A DNA stretch of 64,000 nt, from NCBI GenBank assembly GCA_001803395.1, contig MHBU01000027.1, positions 1-64,000 of the forward strand. Direction: 5' to 3'. Below, piece after piece: positions 39,169 to 54,847 of this stretch. The DNA is from Methylotenera sp. RIFCSPLOWO2_02_FULL_45_14 (GTDB taxonomy: Bacteria > Pseudomonadota > Gammaproteobacteria > Burkholderiales > Methylophilaceae). A model generated the notes under the pieces. It searched no databases and had not been told where the DNA came from. It saw only the letters and a program-made list of their open reading frames with translations. Both the position numbers and the translations under genes were made by a program. Each line of letters begins with the position of its first letter. Within the stretch, counting starts at the first letter, position 1.

Positions 39169-40077
39169 CTAGTTCTTTAACTGTTGAACCAACTCTTTGG
39201 CAGCAATAATCGTCGCCTTTTGCCTATTTTTCTTATCTTTTGATATTTCCGAATCTTTTTTACCAAACAAACTAGTAAGCCAGTTGAAAAATAGATATAT
39301 CGACGATTTGAAAATTTCACGCCTTGCTAAACTGAGAGCATCCCTTGCGTCAAAATGCTTTTTACAGAAAAGATAAAGCCCGCGTCTTTTTCTAAGCCAT
39401 TTATCTAGTGAGTCAGCTCCAATTTCACTGGCGCCAGAAACATGAGTGATTTTCACCGTTTCACAATAACCTATTTGGTAGCCATGCTGCCTTATCCTTA
39501 AGCAAATATCAGCATCTTCACCATATAAAAAATAATCAGGATCAAAACCTGCTATTTCATTATAGAGACTGCGCTTAATCAGCATGCATGCGCCTAATAT
39601 CCAAGCTATTTTCCCTGGTAAGCTTCTGAATGTACTCGTATATTTTAAGTTACGCGATGATGGATAACTAAATCGCGGTAATACATTTTTGCCTTTTCTT
39701 GGCTCCTGAACCACCGGACCTATCATGCCCATCTCCGGGTGGACATCCAAGAATTGGATGAGATGAAAAAATCCTAACGGTTCTGGTATAACCGTATCAG
39801 GATTCAGCAGCATTAAATACTCACCAGTTGCTTTACTTGCGGCCAGATTATTTGCCCGCCCGAATCCTAGATTTTCTTTGCTTTCAATTAAAACAATTTC
39901 ATCACCGAATTCCAAGCGCAGATGCTCTACGCTGTTATCTCTACTGGCATTGTCTATAACAATGATTTCAAGAGTTATATTTTTCTGTTTCTGCAAAGAA
40001 CGAATACACTCTATGGCATAAGCACCAGAATTATAATTAACGATAATAACGGATAACGACTTTGTATCTTGGTTCAT
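39169..40077 (-). CDS. Glycosyltransferase family 2 (rhamnosyltransferase/WbbL-like)
   Basis: A 302-residue GT-A enzyme. It starts LSVIIVNYNSGAYAIECIRSL, with the nucleotide contact IIVIDNASRDNSVEHL, ENLGFGRANNLA, and a metal-binding loop MLLNPDTVIP (a DxD variant). The segment WILGACMLIKRSLYNEIAGFDPDYFLYGEDADICLRIRQHGY is characteristic of WbbL/RfbF-type rhamnosyltransferases. The C-terminal 60 residues are basic and probably associate with the membrane. It is the last gene of the minus-strand operon. The transferred sugar is not determined. Confidence 0.82.
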   Translation of the reverse strand: MNQDTKSLSVIIVNYNSGAYAIECIRSLQKQKNITLEIIVIDNASRDNSVEHLRLEFGDEIVLIESKENLGFGRANNLAASKATGEYLMLLNPDTVIPEPLGFFHLIQFLDVHPEMGMIGPVVQEPRKGKNVLPRFSYPSSRNLKYTSTFRSLPGKIAWILGACMLIKRSLYNEIAGFDPDYFLYGEDADICLRIRQHGYQIGYCETVKITHVSGASEIGADSLDKWLRKRRGLYLFCKKHFDARDALSLARREIFKSSIYLFFNWLTSLFGKKDSEISKDKKNRQKATIIAAKELVQQLKN

Positions 40078-40109
40078 ATTATTCTGTGCAATGAAGATTT
40101 AAGACACTC

Positions 40110-40856
40110 TTATAGTAAACGCTGAGTAATTGCTGTCTCAGCCAAAGCAACATCATGCAAAGTATCCACGGCTATTGACATTGTAGATAAAGAAATCATT
40201 CTCACCTCCCAGCCCATCTCAAGAAACCTCAGAATTTCAATATCCTCAATCTCTTCCAGCTGAGTTTTAGAAGTTCTGTTAGCGAACGATTCCAGAGCCT
40301 TTTTGGGAAAGGCATAAACGCAAACTTGCCGCCAAGCCTGAATAAATTCATGTGACTTTGTAGTGGGGATTGCTGCACGTGACATATATAAAAGTCGCTT
40401 ATCTTCACGCATAACAACTTTAGGAATTGTCGTGCTGCGATACTGCTCTTCACTCTCTATTACACAATATCCGTTCAGTACATCATTGGGATGCTCACTC
40501 GCCGAGGATACCATAGCGCGTAAATCATCGGGGTCGAATAACGGTTCATCGCCCTGCACATTGATATAGATATCCGCAGGTATGGATTTTGCCGCCTCGG
40601 CAATACGATCAGTACCAGTTAAGCAATCACTGGATGTCATGACGACTTGTATGCCATATTGCTCACAAACATTCTTTATGCGCAAATTATCGGTTGCAAC
40701 GTAAATCTGCTTAGGATTAATTGCTTTTGCACATTGCTGGTAAGTACGCACTATCATTGGCAGGCCGCATAATTCAATTAAAGGCTTACCTGGCAAGCGT
40801 GATGATTCGTAGCGCGCAGGAATAACTACGATGACTTCAAGACTGGAATTTTCCAT
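40110..40856 (-). CDS. KdsB-like CMP-sugar acid synthetase (divergent)
   Basis: A 248-residue cytidylyltransferase, the length of E. coli KdsB, which activates Kdo with CTP. Conserved: VVIPARYESSRLPGKPLIEL, GLPMIVRTYQQC, INVQGDEPLF and VDTLHDVALAE. Differences from housekeeping KdsB: the usual His-x-SGT-x-R segment is MTSSDCLTGTDRIAE, and the HIGIYAYR segment around the Kdo site is RQVCVYAFP. It starts five bases after an aldolase-fusion gene. This suggests a paralogue for another 2-keto-3-deoxy sugar acid; a KpsU-like capsule role is the alternative. The genome should also have a standard kdsB elsewhere, which cannot be seen here. Confidence 0.8.
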   Translation of the reverse strand: MENSSLEVIVVIPARYESSRLPGKPLIELCGLPMIVRTYQQCAKAINPKQIYVATDNLRIKNVCEQYGIQVVMTSSDCLTGTDRIAEAAKSIPADIYINVQGDEPLFDPDDLRAMVSSASEHPNDVLNGYCVIESEEQYRSTTIPKVVMREDKRLLYMSRAAIPTTKSHEFIQAWRQVCVYAFPKKALESFANRTSKTQLEEIEDIEILRFLEMGWEVRMISLSTMSIAVDTLHDVALAETAITQRLL

Positions 40857-40861
40857 TATTT

Positions 40862-42475
40862 TTATAGTGCGTAAATAGATTCTGTGTTGATTGAGTAGCG
40901 GGTTGGTGTAATGGACAGCACTGGCAGGCTTCCTACTGTATGCTGATATTTTACGAGCAAATCCTCCATTTCAGATTGCCTTGGATCATCCGCGCTGAAT
41001 CCATCCAGGCCTGCCAACAGGATTCGCTTGGCTTTTCCACTGGTAGCTATCGCCAATGCATAAGCGGTCACGATTGAGGTCGGTAAAACACAAAAGTACT
41101 CGCCAAACTCGAAAGTATGAGGCTGAACTGATAAACCAAAATCACATAATGCTCTACCGTTTAAACGCTCGATAATTTGTTCCGGCAACATGGAAACTGG
41201 TGTAATGAGTGGCTGTGACAAATCAGCGTATTTTTCACAATCTGCCATCATCCGGATAGGATGACATGCCACTCTGTAATGAATCAGCTCCGGATTGATC
41301 TGTTCACTTGTATTTAATGCAATGACTAAAGGCTGCGCACGACGCACATAATCTTCAATCGCATCCAGATGCTCATTTACACTGGCTCCCGCACCAACAA
41401 TAAGCACTTCACGATCTGCAAAAACGCTTTGTGGATTCCAGGTACCTTGAGGATTGCCGTGGTAGAAATGTCGGGCACCATCAAGGGTATGCAAATTAAA
41501 TTTTTTAGCACCGGCATCACGTAAATAATCAATCGCAATCAGAATATCCTCTTCGCGATAGCGACTATCAGTGAGCATTTCCTGAACATAACTGGGATGA
41601 ATACCGTACTTGCCAGCTAGAAAATAATATGGATTGGTCCCCCAGCCATATTGTTGCTTTAAAGGTAGGAAATGATTGTTAATTAACGCGAAAATGGTAG
41701 TCAACTGACTGATAGGAACACGTGTTTCTGCCAACTCTATCAGCAAAAGCTCAGTTTTTACATTACCTGGCCCGCGCCCCATCCCTGTCACTGTACTATC
41801 CAGCCATGAGGCTCCGCTCTCCACCGCCTGCATCGTGTTGCTCAGTGCCAGGCCCATGCTATCGTGAGCGTGAATACCAATGGCGCCATGCCAGTGAAGC
41901 TTAAGTGCCTGCACTATATCAGCAGTACATTCTGTATTAAGGCTGCCCATACTATCCGCAAAGTACAACACATCTATGTCAGCCGCTGCCACTTGTGCAG
42001 ATAATTGTCTAATTTCATCTGGTGAACGGTCAGCGATCTGCATAATGTTAACACCGACTAAATAACCTTGCAGCTTCAGCCAATTTGCGGCTATTAACGC
42101 AGTTTTTAACTCATCAACGTGCGCGGCAATACGCACCAGGCTCACCTTTGACTGTGAAGCAGGTGAAAACAGTTTTTTTAGCGCATCCTTAACCAGCTGC
42201 TGTTCCTGGTTAAGCTCACTACAATTCACCATGACCCCGATCTTAAGTCCATTAGGTATGGTTAGTGTGTTCAGAAAATGGTCTGTGGTATAGGCAAAAG
42301 CGCCTTTAAAGCCATGAGAATCTAATGACCTGAACCCAAGCTCAACATAATCTATTGAGGCTGACTGCATGGCTAACAAGTAGTCCGTCACCAGTTTTGG
42401 ACTATAGCACCACTGGTTGTAGTACCCACCATCCCTCAAGGTGCAATCCAGCAAAGTAATTTTTTGATTAGCCAT
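40862..42475 (-). CDS. HMGL-type aldolase fused to a MptE (DUF115)/GT42-like domain
   Basis: A 537-residue fusion. Residues 1 to about 300 are a TIM-barrel HMG-CoA lyase/DmpG-type aldolase: LLDCTLRDGGYYNQW (active Arg-Asp), YFADSMGSLN, the metal ligands in GIHAHDSMGLAL, and STVTGMGRGPGNV. Such enzymes make or break 4-hydroxy-2-keto acids. Residues about 310-537 open with REVLIVGAGASVNEHLDAIEDYV and include RILLAGLDGFSADD, resembling the Rossmann-like fold of DUF115/MptE and of CMP-sialic acid transferases (GT42). It is five bases from both neighbours: the KdsB-like gene after it and the TagB-like gene before it. The C-terminal assignment is from pattern only. No characterised homologue is recalled. 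Confidence 0.72.
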   Translation of the reverse strand: MANQKITLLDCTLRDGGYYNQWCYSPKLVTDYLLAMQSASIDYVELGFRSLDSHGFKGAFAYTTDHFLNTLTIPNGLKIGVMVNCSELNQEQQLVKDALKKLFSPASQSKVSLVRIAAHVDELKTALIAANWLKLQGYLVGVNIMQIADRSPDEIRQLSAQVAAADIDVLYFADSMGSLNTECTADIVQALKLHWHGAIGIHAHDSMGLALSNTMQAVESGASWLDSTVTGMGRGPGNVKTELLLIELAETRVPISQLTTIFALINNHFLPLKQQYGWGTNPYYFLAGKYGIHPSYVQEMLTDSRYREEDILIAIDYLRDAGAKKFNLHTLDGARHFYHGNPQGTWNPQSVFADREVLIVGAGASVNEHLDAIEDYVRRAQPLVIALNTSEQINPELIHYRVACHPIRMMADCEKYADLSQPLITPVSMLPEQIIERLNGRALCDFGLSVQPHTFEFGEYFCVLPTSIVTAYALAIATSGKAKRILLAGLDGFSADDPRQSEMEDLLVKYQHTVGSLPVLSITPTRYSINTESIYAL

Positions 42476-42480
42476 TTAAA

Positions 42481-43608
42481 TTATTCAGTTTTTTTCCAAG
42501 CATATTGTCGCATAGATTCAACAAGGTTTTGCTGAGCTTCATGACTCCGCGCGCCAAATGCATAACTAAAATAACGTCGTCGCTCATCGGCATATCGGCC
42601 TTTACTTTCTAAAGCATCCTGAACCAAAATGTCCATTTTTTCAGTTTGTGGAGTTAAAATTTTTCCACAATCGTATAAGCTTGTAACTGATTCAATTTGA
42701 TCATCATCAGCACCCTGCCTGCGCATCATCTGCCCCGCTACCGTTCGTGAAAAACGCTCTGTTTCCACAAACATCTGCGGCAAATCGTAATATAAAGACT
42801 CTTCTGCTGGCGATGTGCCGTCAGAAATAACCAGATCCGCATTGGCATATAAAAGCGAAAGTTTTTGTGCAGTCAAATCCAGATAGGCTGAACCACGTGC
42901 CTTAACAATTCTTGCTAACCACATAAAAGCAAATCGATCTTTTAGACGAAATGTAACTGACTGACTGGGATGTGGTCGCAAGATCAAGTTATAGTCGGCT
43001 GGAATCTCATTTAAAAGCTTCTCTGCCATTAATTCCCAGGAGCCAAAAGGTGGCCCCCAAGGAAGGTAAAGTAAAGTTTTTTTAGCTGGGTCCAATCCTA
43101 GATTGGTCAAAAATGTTTGCCTTGATTGCTCATCCTTGATCGGATATTCCAAAAAAGGCATATATCCACAAAGCATCGCCTTATTTGCCAAACCTGCTTT
43201 TTCTACTACCTGCATCATGCGCGGCCCAATAACGCACAAGCGATCAAAGTGCGCCATTGCCTGCACCTCTTTTACCGTCAGGTATGCAAAAGTGCCATGA
43301 AACACCATATATTTTTTGGCACTATAGGCCTGTAGCGCACCTTTATAGAGAGCGCCTGTTACTATTAAGTCTGATGCTTTTAATAACCGCTGCCCTGCAG
43401 AAAATTTTCCAAACAGCTTATTATCTCTTACCACGCTGACGTCCGGATAAACACGTCTGATTGCGCGTGCAGTTGAAGCACGGGTAGTCACAAAATTTCC
43501 ACCTAACGCTCGATATAACGGCATTAGTGTGGGGACTGCCTGATACATTCTTGTATAGTAAGTGATGGTCAATTGTTGTCTTTCATATTCACGATATGCT
43601 GCTGGCAT
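42481..43608 (-). CDS. TagB/TagF (CDP-glycerol glycerophosphotransferase)-like protein
   Basis: A 375-residue GT-B-like protein. The C-terminal donor half contains LLYLPWGPPFGSWE, YNLILRPHPSQS and ADLVISDGTSPAEESLYYDLPQMFVET, which match the polyol-phosphate/TagB-type pattern (RPHP and S-D-x-S/T). The N-terminal half has YMVFHGTFAYLTVKEVQ. Related proteins move glycerol- or ribitol-phosphate or act in capsule assembly in Gram-negatives. No CDP-glycerol synthesis gene lies nearby, so the substrate is open. It is six bases ahead of the aldolase fusion gene, and about 55 bases after the frameshifted GT2. Confidence 0.68.
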   Translation of the reverse strand: MPAAYREYERQQLTITYYTRMYQAVPTLMPLYRALGGNFVTTRASTARAIRRVYPDVSVVRDNKLFGKFSAGQRLLKASDLIVTGALYKGALQAYSAKKYMVFHGTFAYLTVKEVQAMAHFDRLCVIGPRMMQVVEKAGLANKAMLCGYMPFLEYPIKDEQSRQTFLTNLGLDPAKKTLLYLPWGPPFGSWELMAEKLLNEIPADYNLILRPHPSQSVTFRLKDRFAFMWLARIVKARGSAYLDLTAQKLSLLYANADLVISDGTSPAEESLYYDLPQMFVETERFSRTVAGQMMRRQGADDDQIESVTSLYDCGKILTPQTEKMDILVQDALESKGRYADERRRYFSYAFGARSHEAQQNLVESMRQYAWKKTE

Positions 43609-43662
43609 TTAACAGTCAGAATTCTCACATTCACTACTGTCTCAAAGTGTACTTGAGCAGTT

Positions 43663-44441
43663 TTAAACGTTTTTCCATTTAATACAATTATTTATAAAAA
43701 CTTGTATACCAATCCGTGAATCTGTAGCCGTTGGTATCTTAGCGCGCCTCTGCAACCAGGCCACACCAAATAAATTCACAATCCCCACCATCAGCCTATC
43801 AAGCGTCCCATAATTAGACTTTCCATATTCGCGATTGCGATGACCAACAGGAACCGAAACAACTTTGCCACCACGACGTTTGATCAAGGCCGACAAAAAT
43901 CGGTGCATATGGTCGAAATAGGGTAAATCTAAAAACACTGCGCGGGAAAACAGCTTTAATCCGCAACCCGTATCAGGGGTATCATCTTTCAGCATGCTTG
44001 AGCGAACCGTGTTCGCAATTACTGAAGAGATGCGTTTAATCCACGTGTCACGGCGACTCTGCCGCCTATTGCCTCCAACAAGTTTACGCCTTGCGTCAAA
44101 GCCGCTAATAGCTTAGGAATATCCGCTGGATTGTTTTGCCCATCACCATCCAAAGTTGCAATCCAGTCATATCTGGCAAACTTCACACCTGTTCGGACTG
44201 CCGTGCTTTGCCCACAGCTCTTTGCATAACGAACGATTCTCAATTGTGAATACTGGCTTTGTAATGACCTGAGTTTCGCATACGTAGCATCTGTGCTGCC
44301 ATCATCTACATAAATAATCTCGTGTTGAATTACCAATTGCAATGCTGCGTTAATTTCAGAAATCAGGCTTTCAACATTATCTTGTTCATTACGTACGGGA
44401 ACGACGACTGATAACTGCTGAGGTTGCGACAAATTAGACAT
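43663..44441 (-). pseudogene. Frameshifted GT2 (dolichyl-phosphate mannosyltransferase/ArnC-like)
   Basis: Two adjacent ORFs (44019-44441 and 43663-43995) are halves of one gene of about 259 codons. The first begins LSVVVPVRNEQDNVESL with HEIIYVDDGSTDATY and WIATLDGDGQNNPADIPKLLAAL. After that the frame moves to VNLLEAIGG and ends. In another frame the same bases read RKLVGGNRRQSRRDTWIKR, which runs without a stop into LKDDTPDTGCGLKLFSR and GKSNYGTLDRL. A one-base frameshift therefore lies near 44085-44110. No known slippery site is present there. It may be an inactivating mutation or a sequence error. Intact relatives charge polyprenyl phosphate with a sugar. Confidence 0.85.
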
Positions 44442-44483
44442 TATTCCATTTTCAAAATCAATAAATTAATCAGTAGGATTCTG

Positions 44484-45143
44484 TTAGCATAGTTGCTTAA
44501 TTGTATCGAACACAACAATATTATTGTCCGTACAATACGTTTCCCAATTATGCACTTCCGTCCAACCGCTCAAAAATACGAAATCCAAATTTGCACGTTT
44601 CGCCGCTTCAAAATCATATTTGCTATCGCCAATAAATAGTGCTGGTAATTTCAAGTTACCATTAGCTTTTTCACGTGCCAAAACTGTGTCTTTATTGTCT
44701 GGGCTGCCAAAAATTCCACCATCAAAAAAATGTGCCAAGTTGCGCTTAGCAAATAAGCTGCGCAATTCTTGCTGATCGCCTCCCGACACTATCATCCAAT
44801 TGGCATGCGGAGTTGCATCACGCAGCTCTAACAAACATTCTGCAATATCACACTCCATTAAACTCACTTCCAACTCACGTGCAAATCCATCTAAAAGGGC
44901 TTGAATGGCATCATCAGTCACAGGTTGATGAAGGATTTCATGCAGGTAGTAATCAAATTTATGATAGCGCGACACGCCCCCCAGCTTAACGTGATAATCC
45001 ACCAATGCCTGTGCTTGCTCATCGGTGGCTCCTAGGTTTTTAGCGGTGCGAAAGTAAGCTTCCGTTTTTACAATATTGGAATCAAGTACCACTCCATCAC
45101 AATCAAATACGATTGATTTATATTTTTTTAATGCTGTTTGCAA
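44484..45143 (-). CDS. HAD-superfamily phosphatase (Gph-like)
   Basis: A 219-residue haloacid dehalogenase hydrolase. Motif I is IVFDCDGVVLDSN, motif II MIVSGGD, motif III the Lys of NKDTVLAREK, and motif IV FIGDSKYDFEAAKRANLDFVFL. The cap (about residues 20-95) is alpha-helical, as in phosphoglycolate-phosphatase relatives. The start is a TTG with AGGA eight bases upstream. It is the first gene of the six-gene minus operon, so it may remove a phosphate from the sugar acid made by the aldolase, the role KdsC plays in Kdo synthesis; that is inference. Substrate cannot be read from sequence. Confidence 0.82.
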   Translation of the reverse strand: MQTALKKYKSIVFDCDGVVLDSNIVKTEAYFRTAKNLGATDEQAQALVDYHVKLGGVSRYHKFDYYLHEILHQPVTDDAIQALLDGFARELEVSLMECDIAECLLELRDATPHANWMIVSGGDQQELRSLFAKRNLAHFFDGGIFGSPDNKDTVLAREKANGNLKLPALFIGDSKYDFEAAKRANLDFVFLSGWTEVHNWETYCTDNNIVVFDTIKQLC

Positions 45144-45165
45144 ATCTAATTCCTAACCAAAACCA

Positions 45166-45210
45166 ACAAAAAAGGCTTTGCCTCTAGAAAAGTCTAGTCA
45201 GCAAAGCCTT
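45166..45210 (-). terminator. Terminator after eda
   Basis: AAGGCTTTGC and GCAAAGCCTT form a perfect 10-base stem, with an extra CTAGA/TCTAG pairing inside the loop. Six T follow on the minus strand. It lies about 32 bases after the eda stop and about 22 bases ahead of the HAD gene start. Confidence 0.88.
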
Positions 45211-45241
45211 ATTATAACGTGTACTTAAATAAACTAGTTGC

Positions 45242-45868
45242 TTAGGCTGATTTAATAGCACTCGCTTCTTTAGCTAGTTTAGTGATATGTGCCCAATCTT
45301 TTCGCACAACAGCATCAGCTGGGGTTAACCAAGTGCCACCACACACAATCACATTAGGCAAAGCTAAAAATTGTGGTGCAGAATCAACAGTTACGCCGCC
45401 TGTAGGGCAGAATTTCACGTCACCAAATGGCCCTGAAAAACCTTTAAGTAAGTTAATGCCGCCTACTGCCACCGCTGGGAATAGTTTTAAGAAGTAATAA
45501 TCATCAGCATTCGCCATCATAATTTCAGAGCCAGTAGAAACACCTGGTAATAATGGCAAACCAATTTTGCGTGCAAATTGACCTAGCTCGCTGGTATAAC
45601 CAGGGCTTACGGCAAATTTACAGCCTGCATCAAGTGAAGCTTGCGCATCTTTAAGGTTACGTACCGTACCTGAACCCAAAATTGCGTCAGGCACATGCTT
45701 GGCAATAGCTTCCATGCCAGCTAGTGCGCATGATGTACGTAGCGTTACTTCCAGCACTCTAATACCGCCTTCGAGTAGCGCTTCAGCCATAGGCACGGCA
45801 TCCTCTACTCTGTTGATAACGATAACTGGAATCACTGGGCCGTAATTGGCTAAATCTAATGTGTTCAT
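45242..45868 (-). CDS. eda: 2-dehydro-3-deoxy-phosphogluconate (KDPG) aldolase
   Basis: Class I aldolase of 208 residues splitting KDPG to pyruvate and glyceraldehyde-3-phosphate. Visible: VIPVIVINRVEDAVPMAEALLEGGIRVLEVTLRT with the catalytic Glu, ILGSGTVRNLKDAQ, VSPGYTSEL and the Schiff-base Lys in YFLKLFPAVAVGG, then CPTGGV. It follows edd on the same strand across a 239-base gap. In Methylophilaceae this pair serves the KDPG branch of the ribulose monophosphate cycle; that setting is inferred. Confidence 0.96.
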   Translation of the reverse strand: MNTLDLANYGPVIPVIVINRVEDAVPMAEALLEGGIRVLEVTLRTSCALAGMEAIAKHVPDAILGSGTVRNLKDAQASLDAGCKFAVSPGYTSELGQFARKIGLPLLPGVSTGSEIMMANADDYYFLKLFPAVAVGGINLLKGFSGPFGDVKFCPTGGVTVDSAPQFLALPNVIVCGGTWLTPADAVVRKDWAHITKLAKEASAIKSA

Positions 45869-45909
45869 TTTTCTACCTATGATGTTAATTTATTTTTTTA
45901 CTGGATTCT

Positions 45910-45950
45910 CACCATCCTTCGACAAGCTCAGGGAACGGCGGGAATGACAT
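45910..45950. repeat. Dispersed intergenic repeat remnant in the eda-edd gap
   Basis: CCATCCTTCGACAAGCTCAG followed by GGAACGGCGGGAATGACA resembles a short repeat seen widely in proteobacterial intergenic regions, and partly matches the bases around 591-610 of this window. The rest of the 239-base gap shows no gene or clear hairpin. Confidence 0.4.
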
Positions 45951-46107
45951 ATTTTAAAGTTTAAGCAAAGCTACTAGCCGTTTCAAAACTAATTTAGACA
46001 AGACCCTCTAAATTAAGCATAGTACAAGCGCAGACACTACAATTAGTAGTGGCTACGCGAAAGTAACGTCGCATTCTGAATTTTTCATACCGTATATTTT
46101 CAAATAG

Positions 46108-47922
46108 CTATAGCCAAGTAATTGCGCCTTCTTCGGCTGACAATACATTCTTCCGCATCCCACCAAATAACTCACGTCCAAAGCCGTGCGCATTACTGTG
46201 ACGTTTGCTGTCTGAAAGCTCGGCTACATCACGTTCTGCCCATTCATCTTCATCGACCAGCACGTTAACCATACCAACCGTGGCATTTAAACGAATAATA
46301 TCGCCATCTCGCACTTTAGCTAACGGGCCACCAGCAGAGGCTTCTGGCGTTAGATGGATTGCGGCTGGGATTTTTCCAGATGCGCCACTCATGCGACCAT
46401 CGGTCACAATCGCCACTCTGAAGCCTTTGTTTTGCAACACTGCTAATGGCGGCGTTAGTTTATGTAATTCAGGCATACCATTGGCTTTAGGACCTTGGAA
46501 GCGCACCACAGCAATAAAATCTTTTTCCAGCTCACCGCGATCAAATGCAGCCAACAATTCTTCTTGTGCATCAAACACAATGGCTGGTGCCTCGATGATG
46601 TGACGATCTTCTGGCACGGCAGAAATTTTAATCACGCTACGACCCAAGTTACCTTTAAGTAAACGTAAACCGCCAGACTCATTGAATGGGAAAGCTGCGG
46701 TACGCACGATGGTTTCATCGCTACTTTCTTTCGGCAGATCTTTCCAAGCAAGTTTGCCATCTTCTTTGACTGGTAATTTTCCGTAATCACGCAAACCACC
46801 ATAAGCAACAGTGAACACATCTGGGAACATATACCCTGCATCAATCAACTCACGAATCACGAATGCAGGACCTCCCGCAGATTGGAACTCATTCACATCG
46901 GCCTTGCCATTTGGATACACACTCGCCAATAACGGTGTGGTTTTTGCAAGGTGATAGAAGTCTGTCCAATCAATCATAATGCCTGCTGCACGCGCCACAG
47001 CTACCCAATGAATTAGATGGTTGGTTGAGCCACCCGTCGCGAGCAAAGCGACCATGGCATTCACAATCACATGCTCATCGACTAATCTACCAATCGGTGT
47101 AAATTGTTTTTTCTTGGTATTTTCCAGCACCATTTTTACCGCTTCACGTGTGAGCAATTCACGCATACCATCGTTAGGGTGTACAAATGCAGCACCTGGC
47201 ACATGCAAGCCCATGGCTTCCATCAGCATTTGGTTGCTATTGGCTGTACCGTAGAAGGTACAGGTACCTGCGCTATGATAGGCGGCAGATTCTGACGCCA
47301 ACAATTCAGGGCGCCCGATTTTACCTTGCGCGTATTGTTCACGCACTTTAGATTTTGTGGTGTTATCAATACCTGTACTCATTGGCCCTGCTGGTACAAA
47401 CACACAGGGTAAATGACCAAACTGTAATGCGCCAATCAGCAGACCTGGGACGATTTTATCGCACACGCCAAGCAGTAATGCCGCATCAAACACATCATGT
47501 GAAAGCGCTATTGCGGTACTCATGGCAATGGTGTCTCGGCTGAATAACGAAAGCTCCATGCCTGGCTCGCCCTGCGTAATACCATCACACATGGCAGGTA
47601 CGCCCCCAGCCACTTGCACGGTTGCGCCGTATTTATGCGCTTCATCTCGGATAATATCCGGGTAATTGACGTAAGGCTGATGTGCTGAAAGCATTTCATT
47701 GTAAGCAGTAACAATGCCGATGTTAGGCGCTTTTTCTACTACCACACGTAATTTATCGTTAGCTGGCATAGCAGCAAACGCATGCGCGACGTTAGCACAG
47801 CCCAAGCGATCTGCACCGCGAGGTCGATTTACAATTTCATCTAAACGATGCAAATAAGCCGTACGGGTTGGGCGGCTTTTTTCTATAATACGTTCAGTAA
47901 CTTCTAAATGGGATTGTTTCAT
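46108..47922 (-). CDS. edd: 6-phosphogluconate dehydratase
   Basis: Dehydrates 6-phosphogluconate to KDPG; an iron-sulfur enzyme of the IlvD/Edd family. The 604 residues equal the E. coli length (603). CDGITQGEPGMELSLFSRD is the Edd signature and carries one cluster Cys; GVCDKIVPGLLIGAL and GTCTFYGTANSNQM hold the others. TDGRMSGASGKIPAAIHLTPEA is the conserved C-terminal block. It is the first gene of edd-eda. No regulator such as HexR lies beside it. Confidence 0.97.
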   Translation of the reverse strand: MKQSHLEVTERIIEKSRPTRTAYLHRLDEIVNRPRGADRLGCANVAHAFAAMPANDKLRVVVEKAPNIGIVTAYNEMLSAHQPYVNYPDIIRDEAHKYGATVQVAGGVPAMCDGITQGEPGMELSLFSRDTIAMSTAIALSHDVFDAALLLGVCDKIVPGLLIGALQFGHLPCVFVPAGPMSTGIDNTTKSKVREQYAQGKIGRPELLASESAAYHSAGTCTFYGTANSNQMLMEAMGLHVPGAAFVHPNDGMRELLTREAVKMVLENTKKKQFTPIGRLVDEHVIVNAMVALLATGGSTNHLIHWVAVARAAGIMIDWTDFYHLAKTTPLLASVYPNGKADVNEFQSAGGPAFVIRELIDAGYMFPDVFTVAYGGLRDYGKLPVKEDGKLAWKDLPKESSDETIVRTAAFPFNESGGLRLLKGNLGRSVIKISAVPEDRHIIEAPAIVFDAQEELLAAFDRGELEKDFIAVVRFQGPKANGMPELHKLTPPLAVLQNKGFRVAIVTDGRMSGASGKIPAAIHLTPEASAGGPLAKVRDGDIIRLNATVGMVNVLVDEDEWAERDVAELSDSKRHSNAHGFGRELFGGMRKNVLSAEEGAITWL

Positions 47923-48024
47923 AATTTAGATACTCTACTCAGATAACCAACTTGCGGAACTTAGTAAAAACTTAACTAAGTTAAGAAAAACACTAACCCC
48001 GATTATCGCTAAACTGAGGCTTAT

Positions 48025-48065
48025 CGTCAAACAAAAGCCGCTGATTAGACGGCTTTTGTTTGACG
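48025..48065. terminator. Terminator after the carbamoyltransferase gene
   Basis: CGTCAAACAAAAGCCG and its exact complement form a 16-base stem around a nine-base loop. It is 31 bases after the carbamoyltransferase stop. The stem 3' arm is U-rich on both strands but no long T run follows. Confidence 0.75.
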
Positions 48066-48095
48066 TAAATTGATATGTATTTAATCACAATCAAT

Positions 48096-49814
48096 TCATT
48101 TTTTAGTCACCAACACGTCTTCCATGATTAAATACTCCAAATCGCAGCCATAAAACATATCCAGTGCATCTTTAGGCGAACAAATCATCGGCTCACCTCG
48201 GCGATTAAGTGATGTATTCAATACCACTGGCACACCTCGCAATTGCTCAAGATGCTCAATCAGCGCGTAGTAACGCGGATTAGTCTCACGCGTGACCACT
48301 TGCGCACGGGCTGTACCATCCTCATGCACCACTTCAGGAATGCGTGATTTCCAAGTGTCATTCACATCAAAGGTAAACGTCATGTAAGGCGCAGGATGCG
48401 CTGTTTGTAAAATATCCACGGCAACGCGGTCTAACATACTCGGACAAAATGGACGCCAGCGCTCGCGATATTTAATTTGCGCGTTAATGCGGTCTGCCAC
48501 ACCTGGGTAGCTAGGATCACCCAAAATACTACGACAACCAAGCGAACGTGGGCCAAATTCCATGCGGCCTTGTAGCCATGCCAGTGGATTGCCGCTTGCC
48601 AACAATTCCGCCCCTTTTTGCGCAGCATTTTCTACGCGGGTAAAAATAGGTTTTCCAGGGTGTGCTTCACATGCGGCGATACATTCTTCCGTAGTATAGG
48701 CAGGGCCTAAATAAGCATGCTCCATTTTTTGAATCGTATCACCCGCCAAATGCGCCGCATAAGTAGCCGCACCGAGTGACGTACCATTATCACCTGAGGC
48801 TGGCTGCACAAATAACTCTTTAACATGCGGCATGGCGATAATGCGTTGGTTCAATTTCACGTTGAGCGCCACACCACCCGCCATGGCAATGCGCCCGGTT
48901 TCTTTAATAATATCGCCTAGATAATAATCAATCATCTTCAGCGCAACGTCTTCTAACAAGGCTTGTACTGATGCCGCATAGTGAATGTATGGGTCATCAA
49001 TTTCATCCCCATGACGTTTAGGGCCTAGCCACTCAATCAGTTCCGGCGTGAAATAATAACCCTTGCCGTTTTCTTTATAGCGACGCAAACCGACCACATT
49101 CACCAGCTTGGTGTTTACGGTTAACTCACCATTTTCAAACGTCACTAAGCGTGATAAATCATACTTGCTAGCATCACCATAAGGCGCCATGCCCATCACT
49201 TTAAATTCACCATCCAGCATCTCAAAACCAAGATATTCGGTAATCGCACCGTACATGCCGCCCAATGAATCTGGATCATAAAACTCTTTAATTTTATGGA
49301 TTTTTCCGTTTTCGCCATAACCAAAGAAAGTGGTTGCGTACTCGCCTTTGCCATCAATGCCAACAATGGCCGTTTTTTCTTTAAACCCACTTAAATGGTA
49401 CGCGCTAGAGGCATGCGCCAAGTGGTGCTCAACAGGAACAAACTTAGCCTTGGTTAAGCCTAAATCAGCCATTAACTTCAATGACTTGTCACGATTACGC
49501 CGGAAACGGCGATTGCCGTTAAATAACGCATCCAAGGCACGATCAGGCGCATACCAGTGACGTTTGGCATAATGCCAACGCGCATTGGTAGTGAGTGGAA
49601 TCTCAGCATAAGGAAACGCAACAATATCAACGTCTTCAGGCTTAATGCCCGCTTGCTTCATGCAGAATTTAGCTGCCTCGTAAGGAAATTTATTTTTTGC
49701 ATGTTTATCACGAATAAACCGCTCTTCTTCTGCTGCCGCAATAATTTTGCCATCGACCAAAATTGCAGCCGAAGCGTCGTGACCTAATGCACCAGATAAA
49801 CCTAAAACTATCAT
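48096..49814 (-). CDS. Carbamoyltransferase (NodU/CmcH family)
   Basis: A 572-residue enzyme that transfers a carbamoyl group from carbamoyl phosphate by way of an adenylate to a sugar hydroxyl. The N-terminal Kae1-like domain shows VLGLSGALGHDASAAIL, AAAEEERFIRDKH and the metal site VEHHLAHASSAYHLSG. The C-terminal part has GGVALNVKLNQRI, GRMEFGPRSLGCRSILGDP and NTSLNRRGEPMICSP. The neighbours waaG, waaP and further kinases match the Pseudomonas core cluster, where such an enzyme puts a carbamoyl group on a core heptose. I infer the same role here. carAB in this window supplies carbamoyl phosphate. Confidence 0.9.
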   Translation of the reverse strand: MIVLGLSGALGHDASAAILVDGKIIAAAEEERFIRDKHAKNKFPYEAAKFCMKQAGIKPEDVDIVAFPYAEIPLTTNARWHYAKRHWYAPDRALDALFNGNRRFRRNRDKSLKLMADLGLTKAKFVPVEHHLAHASSAYHLSGFKEKTAIVGIDGKGEYATTFFGYGENGKIHKIKEFYDPDSLGGMYGAITEYLGFEMLDGEFKVMGMAPYGDASKYDLSRLVTFENGELTVNTKLVNVVGLRRYKENGKGYYFTPELIEWLGPKRHGDEIDDPYIHYAASVQALLEDVALKMIDYYLGDIIKETGRIAMAGGVALNVKLNQRIIAMPHVKELFVQPASGDNGTSLGAATYAAHLAGDTIQKMEHAYLGPAYTTEECIAACEAHPGKPIFTRVENAAQKGAELLASGNPLAWLQGRMEFGPRSLGCRSILGDPSYPGVADRINAQIKYRERWRPFCPSMLDRVAVDILQTAHPAPYMTFTFDVNDTWKSRIPEVVHEDGTARAQVVTRETNPRYYALIEHLEQLRGVPVVLNTSLNRRGEPMICSPKDALDMFYGCDLEYLIMEDVLVTKK

Positions 49815-49876
49815 GCTAATACTCTCGTGAGTTCATTTTTCATTATTTTACTTTGTTTGGACGAGGCTTGCGTGGT

Positions 49877-51385
49877 TTAGACGATACCTGCGCGAAATAA
49901 GATGCGGTCATCTTCATCAGGATGCCGTGCTGTGTATTCCAATACAAACGCCTGCTTCAACAAAGCCGTGACTTCGGCATCATTTACCCAGTTTCTCATC
50001 AACCGTTTTAAGTCTTTGATATGTTTACGCTTAAACCACCAATCACCAACAACACTGCCAAAATGGGCTTGCATGCCATCCAAATCAATCAACACTGGTG
50101 CAAAATTAACGATTTTGATATTGCTCGCTTTGCAATCACCATGCGAAAACTTCAACAAATACAGCTTATAAAACAAAGTGGCAAGGTTACGCGCCACGGT
50201 TTGCCTATCTTCCAACTTGGTTGATTGTGCAAAAAACTGCATCACATCAGGCGCATCAATATACTCACTCACATAGTAAGCGCGACGGCGAAAACACCCA
50301 AAACGCGCTTCAACCAAGGCCAGTGGTTTAGCTGTAGCGATGTTTGAAATAATCAGCCGATACGCATTCGCCCATGATTTTTCTGCACGGCTGACGCGAA
50401 AAGCACGGTTTAGCCCATGCCAAAAGCTCTTGATGTTGTAGCGCTTGATGACGACTGATTGATTGGCAAGTGTTACCTTGCCGATAGTGCAAGTATTGCC
50501 ATTTTTGATATTGAGTTTTGCATCTGCCAGAAACGGGTCTAATGATGCCAGCACTTGGTTTTCAACACCAAACGTAGACGCAACCGCCTGAAAATACTTG
50601 AAATTCTTCATCACTTTTACATCGGTGCAATTTCTAAAAACTTTCTTATCCGCATAGCCTTTTGCTACTTGATGGCGTATTTTTTGCGTTAAAACCCAAA
50701 CCTCAGCCGCATCTACAGGTGAATGTGTGATGCCCAATTGCAAACAATATTGCTCATAATGCGCGGCAATCCAGCCATCATCGAGCACATCCATTTTAGA
50801 GAATAGCGTCGCCAGATTGTGTAGTTTTTGATGTTTTTGAAATAACGGCGATAAAGATCGAATTCCGTCGCCATCAAGCGTGTAAATTAAATCTTCTTGG
50901 TTTAATGTTTGTTGGACTAAAAAATTTTTGAGGTATAAATCGGTTTGCAACAAGCCGGCTTGATGATGAAATGCTACGGTTTGCACTAGTCGACGCATCA
51001 ACTTTAAACGCTCTGGCGCATCTAACTCCCGACAAATTTCTTCTGCATTATGCGCTTCACCAATCGCCTCAAAGATGATGACATAGGTCTTATGATCTTC
51101 AGCCAAACCAGAAAACAATATCGCGGGACTTGCAATTCCGGCTTTAAATAAACGCTCTACACCTCGTTTATCTCGCTCAAAATAACGAGCAGCGTCGTTA
51201 CCAATAAACAATTTGGCATAAACTGCTTGCTGAGCCCAAACACCTTGGCAAACAAGACGCTTACCTGGTACTCTGCGTACGATTTTCTCGCAAAATAAAG
51301 CTGGGCTGCCAGGCAGCCCAACACTGAAACCAGACTCACCGCCAGATGAGAGCTGTAGTAAATTGTTAATCAGAGATTCGCTCAA
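49877..51385 (-). CDS. Double kinase-domain LPS core protein
   Basis: A 502-residue protein with two protein-kinase-like (RIO/WaaP-type) domains in tandem. The first (about 40-230) has the catalytic loop LLQTDLYLKNFLV and metal site YTLDGDGI. The second (about 260-480) has ANQSVVIKRYNIKS (Lys), KFSHGDCKASNIKIV and VLIDLDGMQAH. Both halves keep the catalytic Asp and the metal-binding Asp. It overlaps the methyltransferase by 20 bases and precedes the carbamoyltransferase. The same kind of protein stands at this position in the Pseudomonas core cluster. It probably phosphorylates core heptoses, but the exact sites are unknown. Confidence 0.76.
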   Translation of the reverse strand: MSESLINNLLQLSSGGESGFSVGLPGSPALFCEKIVRRVPGKRLVCQGVWAQQAVYAKLFIGNDAARYFERDKRGVERLFKAGIASPAILFSGLAEDHKTYVIIFEAIGEAHNAEEICRELDAPERLKLMRRLVQTVAFHHQAGLLQTDLYLKNFLVQQTLNQEDLIYTLDGDGIRSLSPLFQKHQKLHNLATLFSKMDVLDDGWIAAHYEQYCLQLGITHSPVDAAEVWVLTQKIRHQVAKGYADKKVFRNCTDVKVMKNFKYFQAVASTFGVENQVLASLDPFLADAKLNIKNGNTCTIGKVTLANQSVVIKRYNIKSFWHGLNRAFRVSRAEKSWANAYRLIISNIATAKPLALVEARFGCFRRRAYYVSEYIDAPDVMQFFAQSTKLEDRQTVARNLATLFYKLYLLKFSHGDCKASNIKIVNFAPVLIDLDGMQAHFGSVVGDWWFKRKHIKDLKRLMRNWVNDAEVTALLKQAFVLEYTARHPDEDDRILFRAGIV

Positions 51386-52016
51386 AAACAGCCAGATGCA
51401 ATGTTTTAACCAAATTTAATTCTGCAAAATCTTTCACTAAACGATAACCTGAGTTTGCAAAGTAACCCTCAACTTCTTTCAAACTGGTAGGATATTTACG
51501 TAATTTCCTACCGCCTAATTTTTCACGTAGTATCAACTTGGCTTGTGTGTATGAGTAAGGGCTAAAATAAGACATCACTACGTATTGCTTAGCAACGCGG
51601 CACATCTCGCGCACTGCACGTTGACGTATCGCCGGTGTTGGGAAATGTTGGAAAAGTCTAAAGCAAACAATCGCGTCAATACTTTTATCAGCGTAATGTA
51701 AATTTTCCACATCTGCGTGATCTACTGTGATGCCCAAACCCGCTTCATCCGCATTTTTTTGTGCAATTTTAATCATCTCTGGAGATAAATCACCAGCTCT
51801 CACCTTGTAGCCATGACTAGCCAAACGTAGAAATACACGTCCGCCACCACAAGGTAAATCAATCACTTCTAACGTTTTAGGAATAATAGAAAAAGCACGG
51901 TCCAGCAGCTTCATTTCACTATCATGTTTGTGAACCTTACGCTGCTGATAGATTGTCGCTTTGCGCTCATCATAATTGGTACGTGCGCGATAAGTGGTGG
52001 GCTCAGTCATTTTCAA
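51366..52016 (-). CDS. Class I SAM-dependent methyltransferase
   Basis: A 216-residue Rossmann-fold methyltransferase. Motif I is EVIDLPCGGGRVFLRLA; motif II has VRAGDLSPEMIKIAQKNA; the acidic post-II residue is in DHADVENLHYADKSIDAIVCF; FRLFQHFPT follows. It lies within the core-kinase operon, overlapping the double-kinase gene by 20 bases. It could methylate a sugar or phosphate group of the core, or a quinone-like small molecule; the context favours the former. Substrate is not determined. Confidence 0.78.
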   Translation of the reverse strand: MKMTEPTTYRARTNYDERKATIYQQRKVHKHDSEMKLLDRAFSIIPKTLEVIDLPCGGGRVFLRLASHGYKVRAGDLSPEMIKIAQKNADEAGLGITVDHADVENLHYADKSIDAIVCFRLFQHFPTPAIRQRAVREMCRVAKQYVVMSYFSPYSYTQAKLILREKLGGRKLRKYPTSLKEVEGYFANSGYRLVKDFAELNLVKTLHLAVFERISD

Positions 52017-52042
52017 CTATCCAAATAAAAAAACGAATTATA

Positions 52043-52855
52043 CTACTTTGTACCTTGATACGTTTTTTTAGCAGTTTTATGTGTTTTTTTACGTGAAGAA
52101 CGCTTTGCGATCATTTTCAACACAAACTTCTGCCATAAATTAAGTTTATTAACACCCAAATACTGCTTATAAAAATACAGCCTAGCCGTTCTGCTCCAAT
52201 GTTCTGAATGACGATTTAAGGTAGATAAATCATAAAATGTACGCATAAACGGTAGTAATTTCGTACGCGACTTCTCCAAATCAATCACCACTGCATCTTG
52301 TACATTTAGAGTATCAACAAACAAGTGTTTTGGATATAAAGAGCGATGTTGCACACCTGATTGATGTAATTTACTAACAGTAAAAGCCACTTGTTTAATC
52401 AGTGTTTTTTGCACACTGAGCGTAGGTCTTTTTTCAGAAAATAGCTGAGTCACTGCCTGCTCTAAAGGTATAAACCCAACCAGCTCTTCTGTCATCAAAA
52501 GTGCCTGCATGCTGCCGTTGAAATTGCGTTGACCAAAAGCAACCGCTTTAAGTGAAGGTACTTGATGTTTAGCCAAGTACTGCATCATCTTAAACTCACA
52601 TGCAAAGGTAGGCTCACCCTTAATCGGGTGCATTAAAGTACGGCGTTCGTGGTTTTCTTGTCGCTTTAAAAATACACCTAAGCTTGCCTCAGATGCCGTT
52701 TTTAAGCTCATGCGCCCTACACCGCTCCACCCACCGCGACGCTCATTTGGCGCTTCAAACCAATCAACCTTAACATTCCAGATTGCATCAAAATCGTTCA
52801 GTTGATTAAGCGCCAATGTTTTTTGATGTTGTGGTGCTATATATAAAGTGGTCAT
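52043..52855 (-). CDS. InaA/WapP-type LPS kinase-like protein
   Basis: A 270-residue kinase-fold protein. The nucleotide-binding Lys region is ASLGVFLKRQENHERR, and the C-lobe has VQHRSLYPKHLFVD and VVIDLEKSRTKL. In WaaP the first segment reads HRDFY; here the catalytic Asp position is Ser, while the later metal-binding Asp (IDLEK) is kept. This resembles InaA-type proteins. It overlaps waaP by ATGA and shares its direction. Its C-terminus is very basic (RSSRKKTHKTAKKTYQ). It may be a core heptose kinase with an unusual active site or a pseudokinase. Confidence 0.74.
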   Translation of the reverse strand: MTTLYIAPQHQKTLALNQLNDFDAIWNVKVDWFEAPNERRGGWSGVGRMSLKTASEASLGVFLKRQENHERRTLMHPIKGEPTFACEFKMMQYLAKHQVPSLKAVAFGQRNFNGSMQALLMTEELVGFIPLEQAVTQLFSEKRPTLSVQKTLIKQVAFTVSKLHQSGVQHRSLYPKHLFVDTLNVQDAVVIDLEKSRTKLLPFMRTFYDLSTLNRHSEHWSRTARLYFYKQYLGVNKLNLWQKFVLKMIAKRSSRKKTHKTAKKTYQGTK

Positions 52856-53676
52856 TTTCTCAATGCAGCCTTTTCAGTCGCTAACCTTTTTTGAAATTTA
52901 TCGCCATGGAATTTAGCGTAGAGCTTGTTCGCTCTGTGTTCAACTTGCCGCCAAAAATAAGGCATGCAGCCACTAACACCACTGGAATAATATCGCTTAA
53001 AGCGTAGATAATCACGTGACGTTAAGCCAGCATCCATACTTGAAAAATACAGCGCGGCTATATCCTTCACATTGTCACCGATTGAAATTTCCCGATGGAT
53101 TAACATACGATGTAGATCAATCAAATAGAGCTTGATTTGATTTTGTTTTAACGCCGGCGCATCCAAACATAAATGGCAAATGTAAAAATCACGGTGATTA
53201 ACACCATTTTTATGAAGTTTAGCAGCCACATCGGCCACTGCAATAATCAAACGCCGCTTAAAATTAGCATCTGGTGGATTGCTTCTCCAATCAGCACATA
53301 AGTCTTCTAACGAGATAATATCGCCTAAATCTTGAGTGATTACAAATGATTGCTGCGTTGCAGGGTTAATGCCTTTTATACCATAGCCAACCAGTGGCGT
53401 GGTATCGATGCCGATTTCGTCTAGTTTCCGTATCGCATTAACCTCAGTCTGTGCACCTAAAATAGGTTTTTTTAAGCTTAAAAAACTCTTAACAATTTCG
53501 CGCCAACCCACACCAAAGTGCTGTTTAACAAAATAGCTGCCGTCAGCTAACTTAAGCTGAATGGTACGGCGCCCTGCTACGTCTCGGTAAACTTGACCCT
53601 GTAATTGCATGATTTCAACAAAAGTATCTGCACTAAATAGGCTACGAATATTTGCGGGTAACTCGAGCTTATCCAC
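52852..53676 (-). CDS. waaP: LPS core heptose I kinase WaaP (RfaP)
   Basis: A 274-residue kinase that phosphorylates the first heptose of the inner core. Visible: KLADGSYFVKQHFGVGWREIVKS, the catalytic loop GVNHRDFYICHLCLD, and the metal site LYLIDLHRMLIHR, all hallmarks of WaaP. E. coli RfaP is 265 residues and Pseudomonas WaaP 268. It overlaps waaG by eight bases and the next kinase by four, so translation is coupled along the operon. In Pseudomonas the enzyme is essential for export of lipopolysaccharide. Confidence 0.93.
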   Translation of the reverse strand: MDKLELPANIRSLFSADTFVEIMQLQGQVYRDVAGRRTIQLKLADGSYFVKQHFGVGWREIVKSFLSLKKPILGAQTEVNAIRKLDEIGIDTTPLVGYGIKGINPATQQSFVITQDLGDIISLEDLCADWRSNPPDANFKRRLIIAVADVAAKLHKNGVNHRDFYICHLCLDAPALKQNQIKLYLIDLHRMLIHREISIGDNVKDIAALYFSSMDAGLTSRDYLRFKRYYSSGVSGCMPYFWRQVEHRANKLYAKFHGDKFQKRLATEKAALRK

Positions 53677-54847
53677 GTGGCGTTGCCTCTTGATGTACTT
53701 GTGCTAATTTTTGATGAGCGTAGTTAATAATATAGTCAGCCTCTGCACTCACAGACGAAGTATTTTTAATGTGTACGGTATATTGCTTACCATGCTCTTG
53801 CCATTCAACTTGCCGCGGTGATTGCAACATCATGGCAAGCGCACTATTCATCTCTAATTGACTAAAAGGTGACGGCAACACCACTCCCGCATTAGCCTCA
53901 GCAACACGTGGTGCATAACCACAGACATCCGTCACCAATACCGGCAAGCCTGCGGTCATCGCCTCAATCAGCACAATACCTGCCAATTCAGAGCGTGCAG
54001 GATGCGCAAATATATCCGCTCCCACCATTAAATCTGCCACATCTGATCGCCCACCCACGTGAATGCAGCGGTGTGCAACGCCACGTTTTTCGCAGTAGGC
54101 TTTTATATTACTGTTCGATTCATATTCACCAATCGCAATTAACCAAGTGTTATCCTGCAAGGCTTTTGGCAAAGCGGCTATGGCATCAATGACCCTATCC
54201 ACCCCTTTACGCACAAAAGCTGAGCCTACCGTTAATACGATATTTGCGTCTGCAGGTAAGTTAAATTGTTGCCTGGCGTACACGCGGCAAGCTTCACGAC
54301 GCTTGTTGGCAAATTTTTGCAGCGGAATACTTGGTGGCAATAAATGAAAACGTGCGTCTGGCGTGCCATACCATTGCTGAAAGCTTTGTTTTTCGTGTTC
54401 TGTCAGCAATAAAATCTGGCAACTGCCTTGCGCATCCATCACGGCTTTTTCAGCCGCTGCAAAAAAGCGATAACGCCCCCTAATGAAAGGCAGGTGTCTG
54501 TATAACCAAGACCGCTCTTCATGCGCACGCTGTACATAACACGGGTCAGCCGCATAATAAATATCCAGCCCTGCCATACGGTTGAATCCCACCACCAAAT
54601 CTACCGGGGCTTTGACTAAAGCTTGCTGCATGGCGCTTATCAACGACTGATGGCGCTGATGATTCAACCAGCCACGGCTAGGCAAAATTTCCACGTTAAT
54701 CCGCGCATCGGGCATGCCGCCACGCCATTCACCTGTATAAATAGTGACCTCATGCCCGGCATTGACGCAATCATGCGCGATTCTCAACATATCACGCTGC
54801 ACGCCGCCGTAGGGAAATACCTTAAAAATTAGAAATGCAAACTTCAA
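53669..54847 (-). CDS. waaG: LPS glucosyltransferase I WaaG (RfaG)
   Basis: A GT4 enzyme of 392 residues adding the first outer-core hexose to heptose II. The start KFAFLIFKVFPYGGVQRDMLRIA with the Gly-Gly-x-Gln motif and HEVTIYTGEWRG is WaaG-like. The donor domain shows VGSAFVRKGVDRVIDAIAAL, HVGGRSDVADLMVGADIFAHPA and SELAGIVLIEAMTAGLPVL with the conserved Glu. It is the first gene of the operon waaG-waaP-kinase-methyltransferase-double kinase-carbamoyltransferase and is divergent from waaC. Glucose as the donor sugar is inferred from the family. Confidence 0.9.
   Translation of the reverse strand: MKFAFLIFKVFPYGGVQRDMLRIAHDCVNAGHEVTIYTGEWRGGMPDARINVEILPSRGWLNHQRHQSLISAMQQALVKAPVDLVVGFNRMAGLDIYYAADPCYVQRAHEERSWLYRHLPFIRGRYRFFAAAEKAVMDAQGSCQILLLTEHEKQSFQQWYGTPDARFHLLPPSIPLQKFANKRREACRVYARQQFNLPADANIVLTVGSAFVRKGVDRVIDAIAALPKALQDNTWLIAIGEYESNSNIKAYCEKRGVAHRCIHVGGRSDVADLMVGADIFAHPARSELAGIVLIEAMTAGLPVLVTDVCGYAPRVAEANAGVVLPSPFSQLEMNSALAMMLQSPRQVEWQEHGKQYTVHIKNTSSVSAEADYIINYAHQKLAQVHQEATPRG

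Follow-up and report, generated by a model that had tools for sequence, protein, structure and literature searches.

The window, a stretch of 64,000 nucleotides (positions 1 to 64,000 of contig MHBU01000027.1 of Methylotenera sp. RIFCSPLOWO2_02_FULL_45_14), contains a single open reading frame of 537 codons at 42475–40862 on the minus strand, exactly where the first-pass annotation had placed it. The annotation had named no strand; the plus strand over the same interval is closed, with stops throughout that frame. The annotation had described the product as an HMGL aldolase fused to a further domain, and this was borne out: the PF00682 (HMGL-like) match covers residues 6–253 of the 537-aa chain (86.7 bits, above the cut-off of 29) and is followed by an MptE-type fold. 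The predicted model of the whole chain had a pLDDT of 91.9 and a pTM of 0.81. Coordinates of the fusion gene, its conserved motifs, and the neighboring genes are given in Table 1.

Table 1. Features of the fusion gene and its surroundings in the window.
Feature	Coordinates	Strand	Evidence or remark
Fusion protein, HMGL-like aldolase with MptE-like C-terminal domain	40862..42475	-	537 aa; 148 C-domain relatives in genomes
DRE-TIM (HMGL-like) aldolase domain, residues 6–300	41576..42460	-	PF00682 E 2.3e-24; PDB 3dxi
R14-D15 of the LRDGG motif	42431..42436	-	both invariant in 72/72 full-length fusions
H202-x-H204, predicted metal ligands	41864..41872	-	each kept in 71/72 fusions
MptE/TPK-type C-terminal domain, residues 345–537	40865..41443	-	PF01973 sub-threshold, profile, predicted model, Foldseek
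G361-x-G363, glycine-rich loop (LLLGTGPGV in the family)	41387..41395	-	G363 72/72, G361 70/72
H405-P406-x-R408 of the ACHPVR motif	41252..41263	-	invariant 72/72
D491-G492 ... D497-P-R499, DGY...DPR motif	40979..41005	-	D491, G492, D497, R499 invariant 72/72
KdsB-family cytidylyltransferase, 248 aa, paralogue	40110..40856	-	PRK13368 E 4.7e-87; below kdsB equivalog cut-off
GT2 glycosyltransferase downstream of the cytidylyltransferase, in the surface-polysaccharide locus	39169..40077	-	PF00535 E 1.3e-23
Protein of 375 aa, encoded immediately upstream of the fusion gene	42481..43608	-	no Pfam or PDB match
HAD-family phosphatase, 219 aa, third cassette gene	44484..45143	-	PF00702/PF13419; two genes between HAD and fusion

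The minus-strand region 39169–54847 is an LPS core or O-antigen type locus, with three Kdo/WaaP-family kinases, a carbamoyltransferase, and GT4 and GT2 enzymes among its products. The Entner-Doudoroff genes edd and eda also sit inside this polysaccharide locus (45242–47922, minus strand). At 43663–44441 on the same strand, a GT2 glycosyltransferase is split into two ORFs of 140 and 110 aa in different frames, owing to a frameshift or a sequencing error.

The nearest solved relative of the aldolase domain is PDB 3dxi (BVU_2661 of Bacteroides vulgatus; sequence E 2.5e-49, fold E 1.8e-20, 31% identity), which belongs to the same aldolase subfamily. The title of this entry, 'N-terminal domain of a putative aldolase', implies an additional C-terminal part in BVU_2661 as well; BVU_2661 was compared by the aldolase domain alone. 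When the full chain was compared with the PDB by fold, the next best matches after 3dxi were HOA-family aldolase-dehydrogenase complexes. The domain resembles DmpG/BphI (TIGR03217; PDB 1nvm, 4jn6, 4lrt) as a pyruvate-using DRE-TIM metal aldolase with conserved LRDG and HxH motifs. R14-D15 is, we assume, the metal/catalytic pair of DRE-TIM enzymes, and H202 and H204 presumably act as metal ligands, as in this family. Unlike DmpG/BphI, the fusion has an MptE-type domain in place of the HOA C-terminal domain, its loci were seen without an acetaldehyde dehydrogenase partner, and all 72 full-length fusions carry Tyr (Y18) after the LRDG motif, where HOA-type enzymes have a catalytic His. The TIGR03217 equivalog (4-hydroxy-2-oxovalerate aldolase) was not reached (87.4 bits vs. 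a cut-off of 286).

The C-terminal domain was modeled with AlphaFold (residues 318–537, 77 aligned relatives; pLDDT 89.9, pTM 0.88), and approximately 190 residues were predicted with high confidence as an MptE/thiamine-pyrophosphokinase (TPK)-type fold. The best Foldseek match of this model in the PDB was SteA (9hmz, E 4e-5, with SteA matches ranging to 6e-4; probability 1.00). MptE/HPPK 8sd5 was matched with E 1.9e-3 and 4.9e-3 (probability 1.00, TM 0.44–0.50); the resemblance to MptE is borne out at the fold level. No sialyltransferase and no Maf structure was present among the 50 best PDB matches. The sequence comparisons gave a similar picture. A profile of 77 C-domains matched just two chains in the whole PDB, both of MptE (E 0.009 and 0.04), and the best matches among viral models were phage MptE-like proteins (E 1e-6 to 7e-4), sialyltransferases being much weaker. 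The PF01973 (MptE-like) match of the window protein was sub-threshold (residues 353–491, E 5.9e-5, 23.4 bits vs. a cut-off of 34.6). A score of 26.3 bits was also below this cut-off, and only 16 of the 77 C-domains matched the family at all. PF06002 (GT42) matched neither the fusion nor any of the 77 C-domains. In hhalign, the probability of a relationship to 30 PF01973 proteins of Pseudomonadota, taken as Maf-type, was 2%; profile-profile comparisons with Maf, GT42, and neighboring Maf-like proteins were weak, too weak to decide. A scan of viral contigs with the C-domain gave no lead, and neither did E. coli genomes.

The first-pass annotation had compared this domain to both DUF115/MptE and the CMP-sialyltransferases and had named CstII and MptE as the structures to set against a predicted model. 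These results support 'MptE-like', whereas 'CstII-like' applies only in the sense of a shared broad fold class; a specific GT42/CstII resemblance was not found. The tie to CstII would be indirect, through SteA, whose C-terminal domain (9hmz, 9hmy) has been reported to be similar to the CMP-binding domain of CstII and is an example of this fold in a regulator that has a conserved pocket (PMC12977500). SteA itself is a membrane-linked cell-division regulator outside sugar synthesis. With the 6-hydroxymethylpterin diphosphokinase MptE (PF01973; 8sd5) the C-domain shares the fold and the glycine-rich loop, which aligns with the same loop of MptE, but it scores below the family cut-off, is fused to an aldolase, and is encoded in polysaccharide loci. 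With the Maf flagellin glycosyltransferases and GT42 enzymes, which use CMP-ulosonic acids, it shares the broad fold class and the order of motifs (a G-x-G-P-S loop; a hydrophobic strand ending in G-x-D), but no significant sequence or direct fold match. Six polar residues of the C-domain (H405, R408, D412, D491, D497, and R499) were invariant in all 72 fusions.

When 85,462 species genomes were searched with the C-domain, 148 relatives turned up, spread over at least five phyla; the 80 retained were from Pseudomonadota, Cyanobacteria, Bacillota, Actinomycetota, Campylobacterota, and one Balneolaceae MAG. All examined copies not cut by a contig end were fused to the aldolase. The fusion gene was frameshifted in two genomes (L030:5037-6660 and L081:5050-6663). 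A profile search of 326 genomes returned fused copies and one contig-edge fragment, and nothing else. On plasmids, three Leisingera fusions were matched, annotated as 'aldolase catalytic domain-containing protein'. No stand-alone C-domain was found in the species-genome scan, the 326 genomes, or the plasmids, and stand-alone C-domains were accordingly dropped as a clue to function. Full-length conservation across many phyla rules out chance or artefact as the origin of the fusion. The remark in the earlier annotation that no enzyme of this layout had been described fits our literature searches, in which no description of the fusion protein or its cassette was found; the domain architecture itself, confirmed by the search, is widespread in genomes rather than singular. 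The two-domain protein is real, conserved, and apparently undescribed, and it is encoded in a conserved CMP-sugar cassette.

The cassette comprises the fusion, a cytidylyltransferase, and a HAD-family phosphatase. The expectation that CMP activation is provided by the adjacent gene was confirmed insofar as the neighbor in the window is a KdsB-family cytidylyltransferase; it did not reach the TIGR00466 cut-off (141 vs. 155.2 bits) but passed that of the broader PRK13368 subfamily. Of the 72 full-length fusions, 42 had a partner of KdsB-type, 19 of NeuA-type, and 8 of a distant NeuA-type, 2 had two types, and one (L078), scored as partnerless, has a cytidylyltransferase by Pfam. The distant-type locus L074 looks degenerate, so that an intact cytidylyltransferase lies near 71 of the 72. 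In a class-wide sample of whole genomes, unselected by C-domain motifs, all six complete fusions adjoined a cytidylyltransferase. A HAD gene was present near the fusion in 74 cassette loci. Stand-alone relatives of the aldolase (24–35% identity) at 12 Pseudomonadota loci and on three plasmids were found without the cassette, which makes the cassette linkage a property of the fusion and not of the aldolase in general. Their neighbors included acetohydroxyacid-synthase-like, KDPG-aldolase-like, and thiolase-like genes, and one lay in a pseudaminic-acid-type cluster; beyond Pfam or profile matches, these labels were assigned by eye. In L120 and L121, a stand-alone aldolase relative adjoins a short protein that by eye resembles KDPG aldolases.

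A third type of cassette contains, besides the fused aldolase, an HpcH/HpaI-family aldolase between the fusion and the distant NeuA-type cytidylyltransferase (L016, L024, L031, L070, L078, L079, L083, L093, L099, and L100; eight of these in the main set). The larger KdsB and NeuA types had no second aldolase as a regular member. Separate Maf-like genes were detected near cassettes in L016, L032, L037, L046, L052, L053, L086, and L090, and possibly in L077 (no Pfam match), and a GT29-like gene in L039; altogether, Maf-like or GT29-like genes occurred in at least nine loci. In the Pseudomonas loci L046 and L086, carbamoyltransferase and kinase genes related to those of the window were located near the cassettes, with the kinship of the kinases judged by eye.

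Mean pairwise identity was 63% for the aldolase domain, 57% for the C-domain, 60% for KdsB, 59% for NeuA, and 52% for HAD. With a mean of 57%, similar to that of the cytidylyltransferases, the C-domain is conserved like a metabolic enzyme. Changes between K and N partner types numbered only 3 on the tree of residues 438–537, compared to 10 on residues 340–439 and 12 each on the aldolase and HAD trees; shuffled labels gave a mean of 15.6 changes and a minimum of 11. Residue 500, beside the invariant DPR, varies with the type of cytidylyltransferase (mostly S/T in the K-type, N in most of the N-type and distant-type proteins), and position 528, beside TPxRY, is also type-specific; in the window protein, these two residues are Q500 and S528. 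A tree-corrected residue test yielded two supported independent pairs, too few for significance. The co-segregation of the C-domain end with its 3' neighbor could partly be due to physical linkage. Among fusions of a single type, the C-domain end was no closer than the aldolase domain to the history of the cytidylyltransferase, and no linkage gradient was observed, which argues against plain physical linkage as the cause. The last 100 residues track the type of cytidylyltransferase far better than the aldolase domain or the HAD gene does, which suggests that the C-domain may handle the CMP-sugar and that its end may meet the cytidylyltransferase or its product.

The genome of the window encodes KdsA (404 bits) and KdsB (284 bits), both above the cut-off, on other contigs, which rules out the cassette as an alternative Kdo route. 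Given these enzymes, the KdsB-family gene in the window is a second and probably specialized copy. The MptE-type fold and the link to CMP activation are supported, and so, by inference from the protein families, is a role of the fusion in an acidic-sugar pathway. The probable product of the conserved cassette is a CMP-activated 3-deoxy-ulosonic acid built from pyruvate, separately from Kdo, as indicated by the partner linkage in 71 of 72 loci, the HAD gene in most of them, and the lack of these partners beside stand-alone aldolases. Judging from its family, the metal-dependent DRE-TIM aldolase would join pyruvate and a sugar aldehyde, probably phosphorylated, to give a 3-deoxy-2-keto acid; the HAD enzyme would take off the phosphate; and the KdsB/NeuA-type cytidylyltransferase would form the CMP-sugar. 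The C-terminal domain most likely holds the nucleotide-linked product, with coupling by transfer, feedback, or channeling. We have good confidence in the pathway part of this explanation, although its chemistry is drawn from enzyme families. That the C-domain binds the CMP product is somewhat more probable than the contrary, and we give similar credit to the explanation as a whole, in which a cassette dedicated to a CMP-ulosonic acid would serve a surface polysaccharide, with the fusion as its first enzyme. The canonical pathways to Kdo and sialic acid (KdsA/NeuB, KdsC, KdsB/NeuA) go through the same three steps of carbon-carbon bond formation, dephosphorylation, and CMP activation; in the cassette, the place of the PEP-dependent synthase would be taken by an HMGL-type aldolase and that of KdsC by a different HAD enzyme.

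Among the points against this explanation are the Tyr in place of the HOA-type catalytic His and the extra HpcH/HpaI aldolase in the eight third-type cassettes of the main set, an enzyme that would be superfluous if the ulosonic acid came from the fused aldolase alone. The position of this second aldolase would fit a fusion that makes no ulosonic acid but modifies or extends a sugar supplied by other enzymes, with the C-domain tailoring it. We find this improbable, as the KdsB and NeuA types, 42 and 19 of the 72 loci, do without a regular second aldolase. It is about equally improbable that the C-domain is a phospho- or pyrophosphokinase like MptE and TPK, whose substrate would be the sugar aldehyde or the keto acid prior to activation. 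MptE is the sole PDB family matched by the C-domain profile and is among its top fold matches; however, the score lies below the MptE-like cut-off, the acidic metal-binding motifs of MptE are missing from the corresponding place, which ACHPVR occupies, and with a HAD phosphatase in the cassette that removes phosphate, none needs adding at the end.

The reading in the first-pass annotation, a CMP-ulosonate glycosyltransferase (CstII- or Maf-like) by which one chain starts the synthesis and transfers the sugar, is possible but in our opinion rather unlikely. It would agree with the linkage to cytidylyltransferases, with the tracking of their type by the last 100 residues, and, slightly, with a Halomonas locus with two whole cassettes (L017, L041), where the C-domains are more diverged (74% identity) than the N-domains (84%), as would fit different linkages. 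However, in sequence and fold the C-domain stands closest to MptE and SteA and not to GT42 or Maf; PF06002 gave no match, neither group is among the 50 best PDB matches, and the profile comparisons were weak. GT42 enzymes are also longer than the ~190 aa of this domain. An acceptor-specific transferase would be expected to vary between very different glycan loci, but the C-domain keeps its 57% mean identity across phyla, and in at least nine loci the cassette is accompanied by a distinct Maf-like or GT29-like gene, including two by a full kdsBADC set in a Bacillus. On the side of a transferase, the fold class does include CMP-using enzymes, given the reported likeness of the SteA C-terminal domain to CstII (PMC12977500). 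In its full form, with a pyruvate aldolase that makes the 3-deoxy-ulosonic acid and a minimal MptE-type glycosyltransferase domain that transfers the CMP-sugar after activation, a bifunctional chain seems still a little more doubtful; if true, the glycosyltransferase family would be new, and CMP-ulosonic acids would have a route that does without a synthase. Of comparable standing to the transferase, and likewise tentative, is a non-catalytic sensor or docking module, which would either exert feedback on the aldolase through bound CMP-sugar or CTP or keep the cytidylyltransferase in place for channeling. Regulatory or partner-binding domains occur at the C-terminus of other DRE-TIM enzymes, and HOA-family aldolase-dehydrogenase complexes rank next after 3dxi by fold. 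The C-domain is always fused, is conserved to the same degree as the cytidylyltransferases, and segregates with their type, as docking would predict; SteA shows that the fold can serve a regulatory protein (PMC12977500). Against such a module, the six invariant polar residues look like an active or ligand site, and the type-specific positions 500 and 528 adjoin invariant motifs in sequence and form no obviously separate surface.

Should the explanation by a dedicated CMP-ulosonic acid cassette hold, a CMP-activated acidic sugar would be made by an aldolase-first route in bacteria of at least five phyla. The genes are at present annotated as 'aldolase catalytic domain-containing protein' and '3-deoxy-manno-octulosonate cytidylyltransferase'; the explanation would correct many wrong 'Kdo' annotations and predict a missing monosaccharide in many surface polysaccharides. 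It would also provide a defined protein for asking how the MptE/TPK fold shifts between kinase, CMP-transferase, and regulator.

Several further genes were observed around the cassettes. A divergent family of ~440–900 aa is encoded near the fusion (L023:3401-5065, L026:3755-5065, L017:3684-5060, and 12 more ORFs), often directly upstream without a gap; no PDB match was found for it and no Pfam match for the one member tested. An iterative search for further GT-like neighbors drifted to an unrelated family. In Pseudomonas and related bacteria (L046, L086, L032, L037, and L090), a conserved Maf/MptE-like protein of 280–300 aa (66% mean column identity) is encoded downstream of the cassette and is a candidate CMP-sugar transferase. 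The Bacillus locus L053:169-8134 contains homologues of kdsB, kdsA, kdsD, and kdsC and genes for two stand-alone MptE-like proteins that pass the Pfam cut-off, followed by the fusion cassette with its own KdsB and HAD genes; this Gram-positive bacterium may make another ulosonic acid in addition to Kdo.
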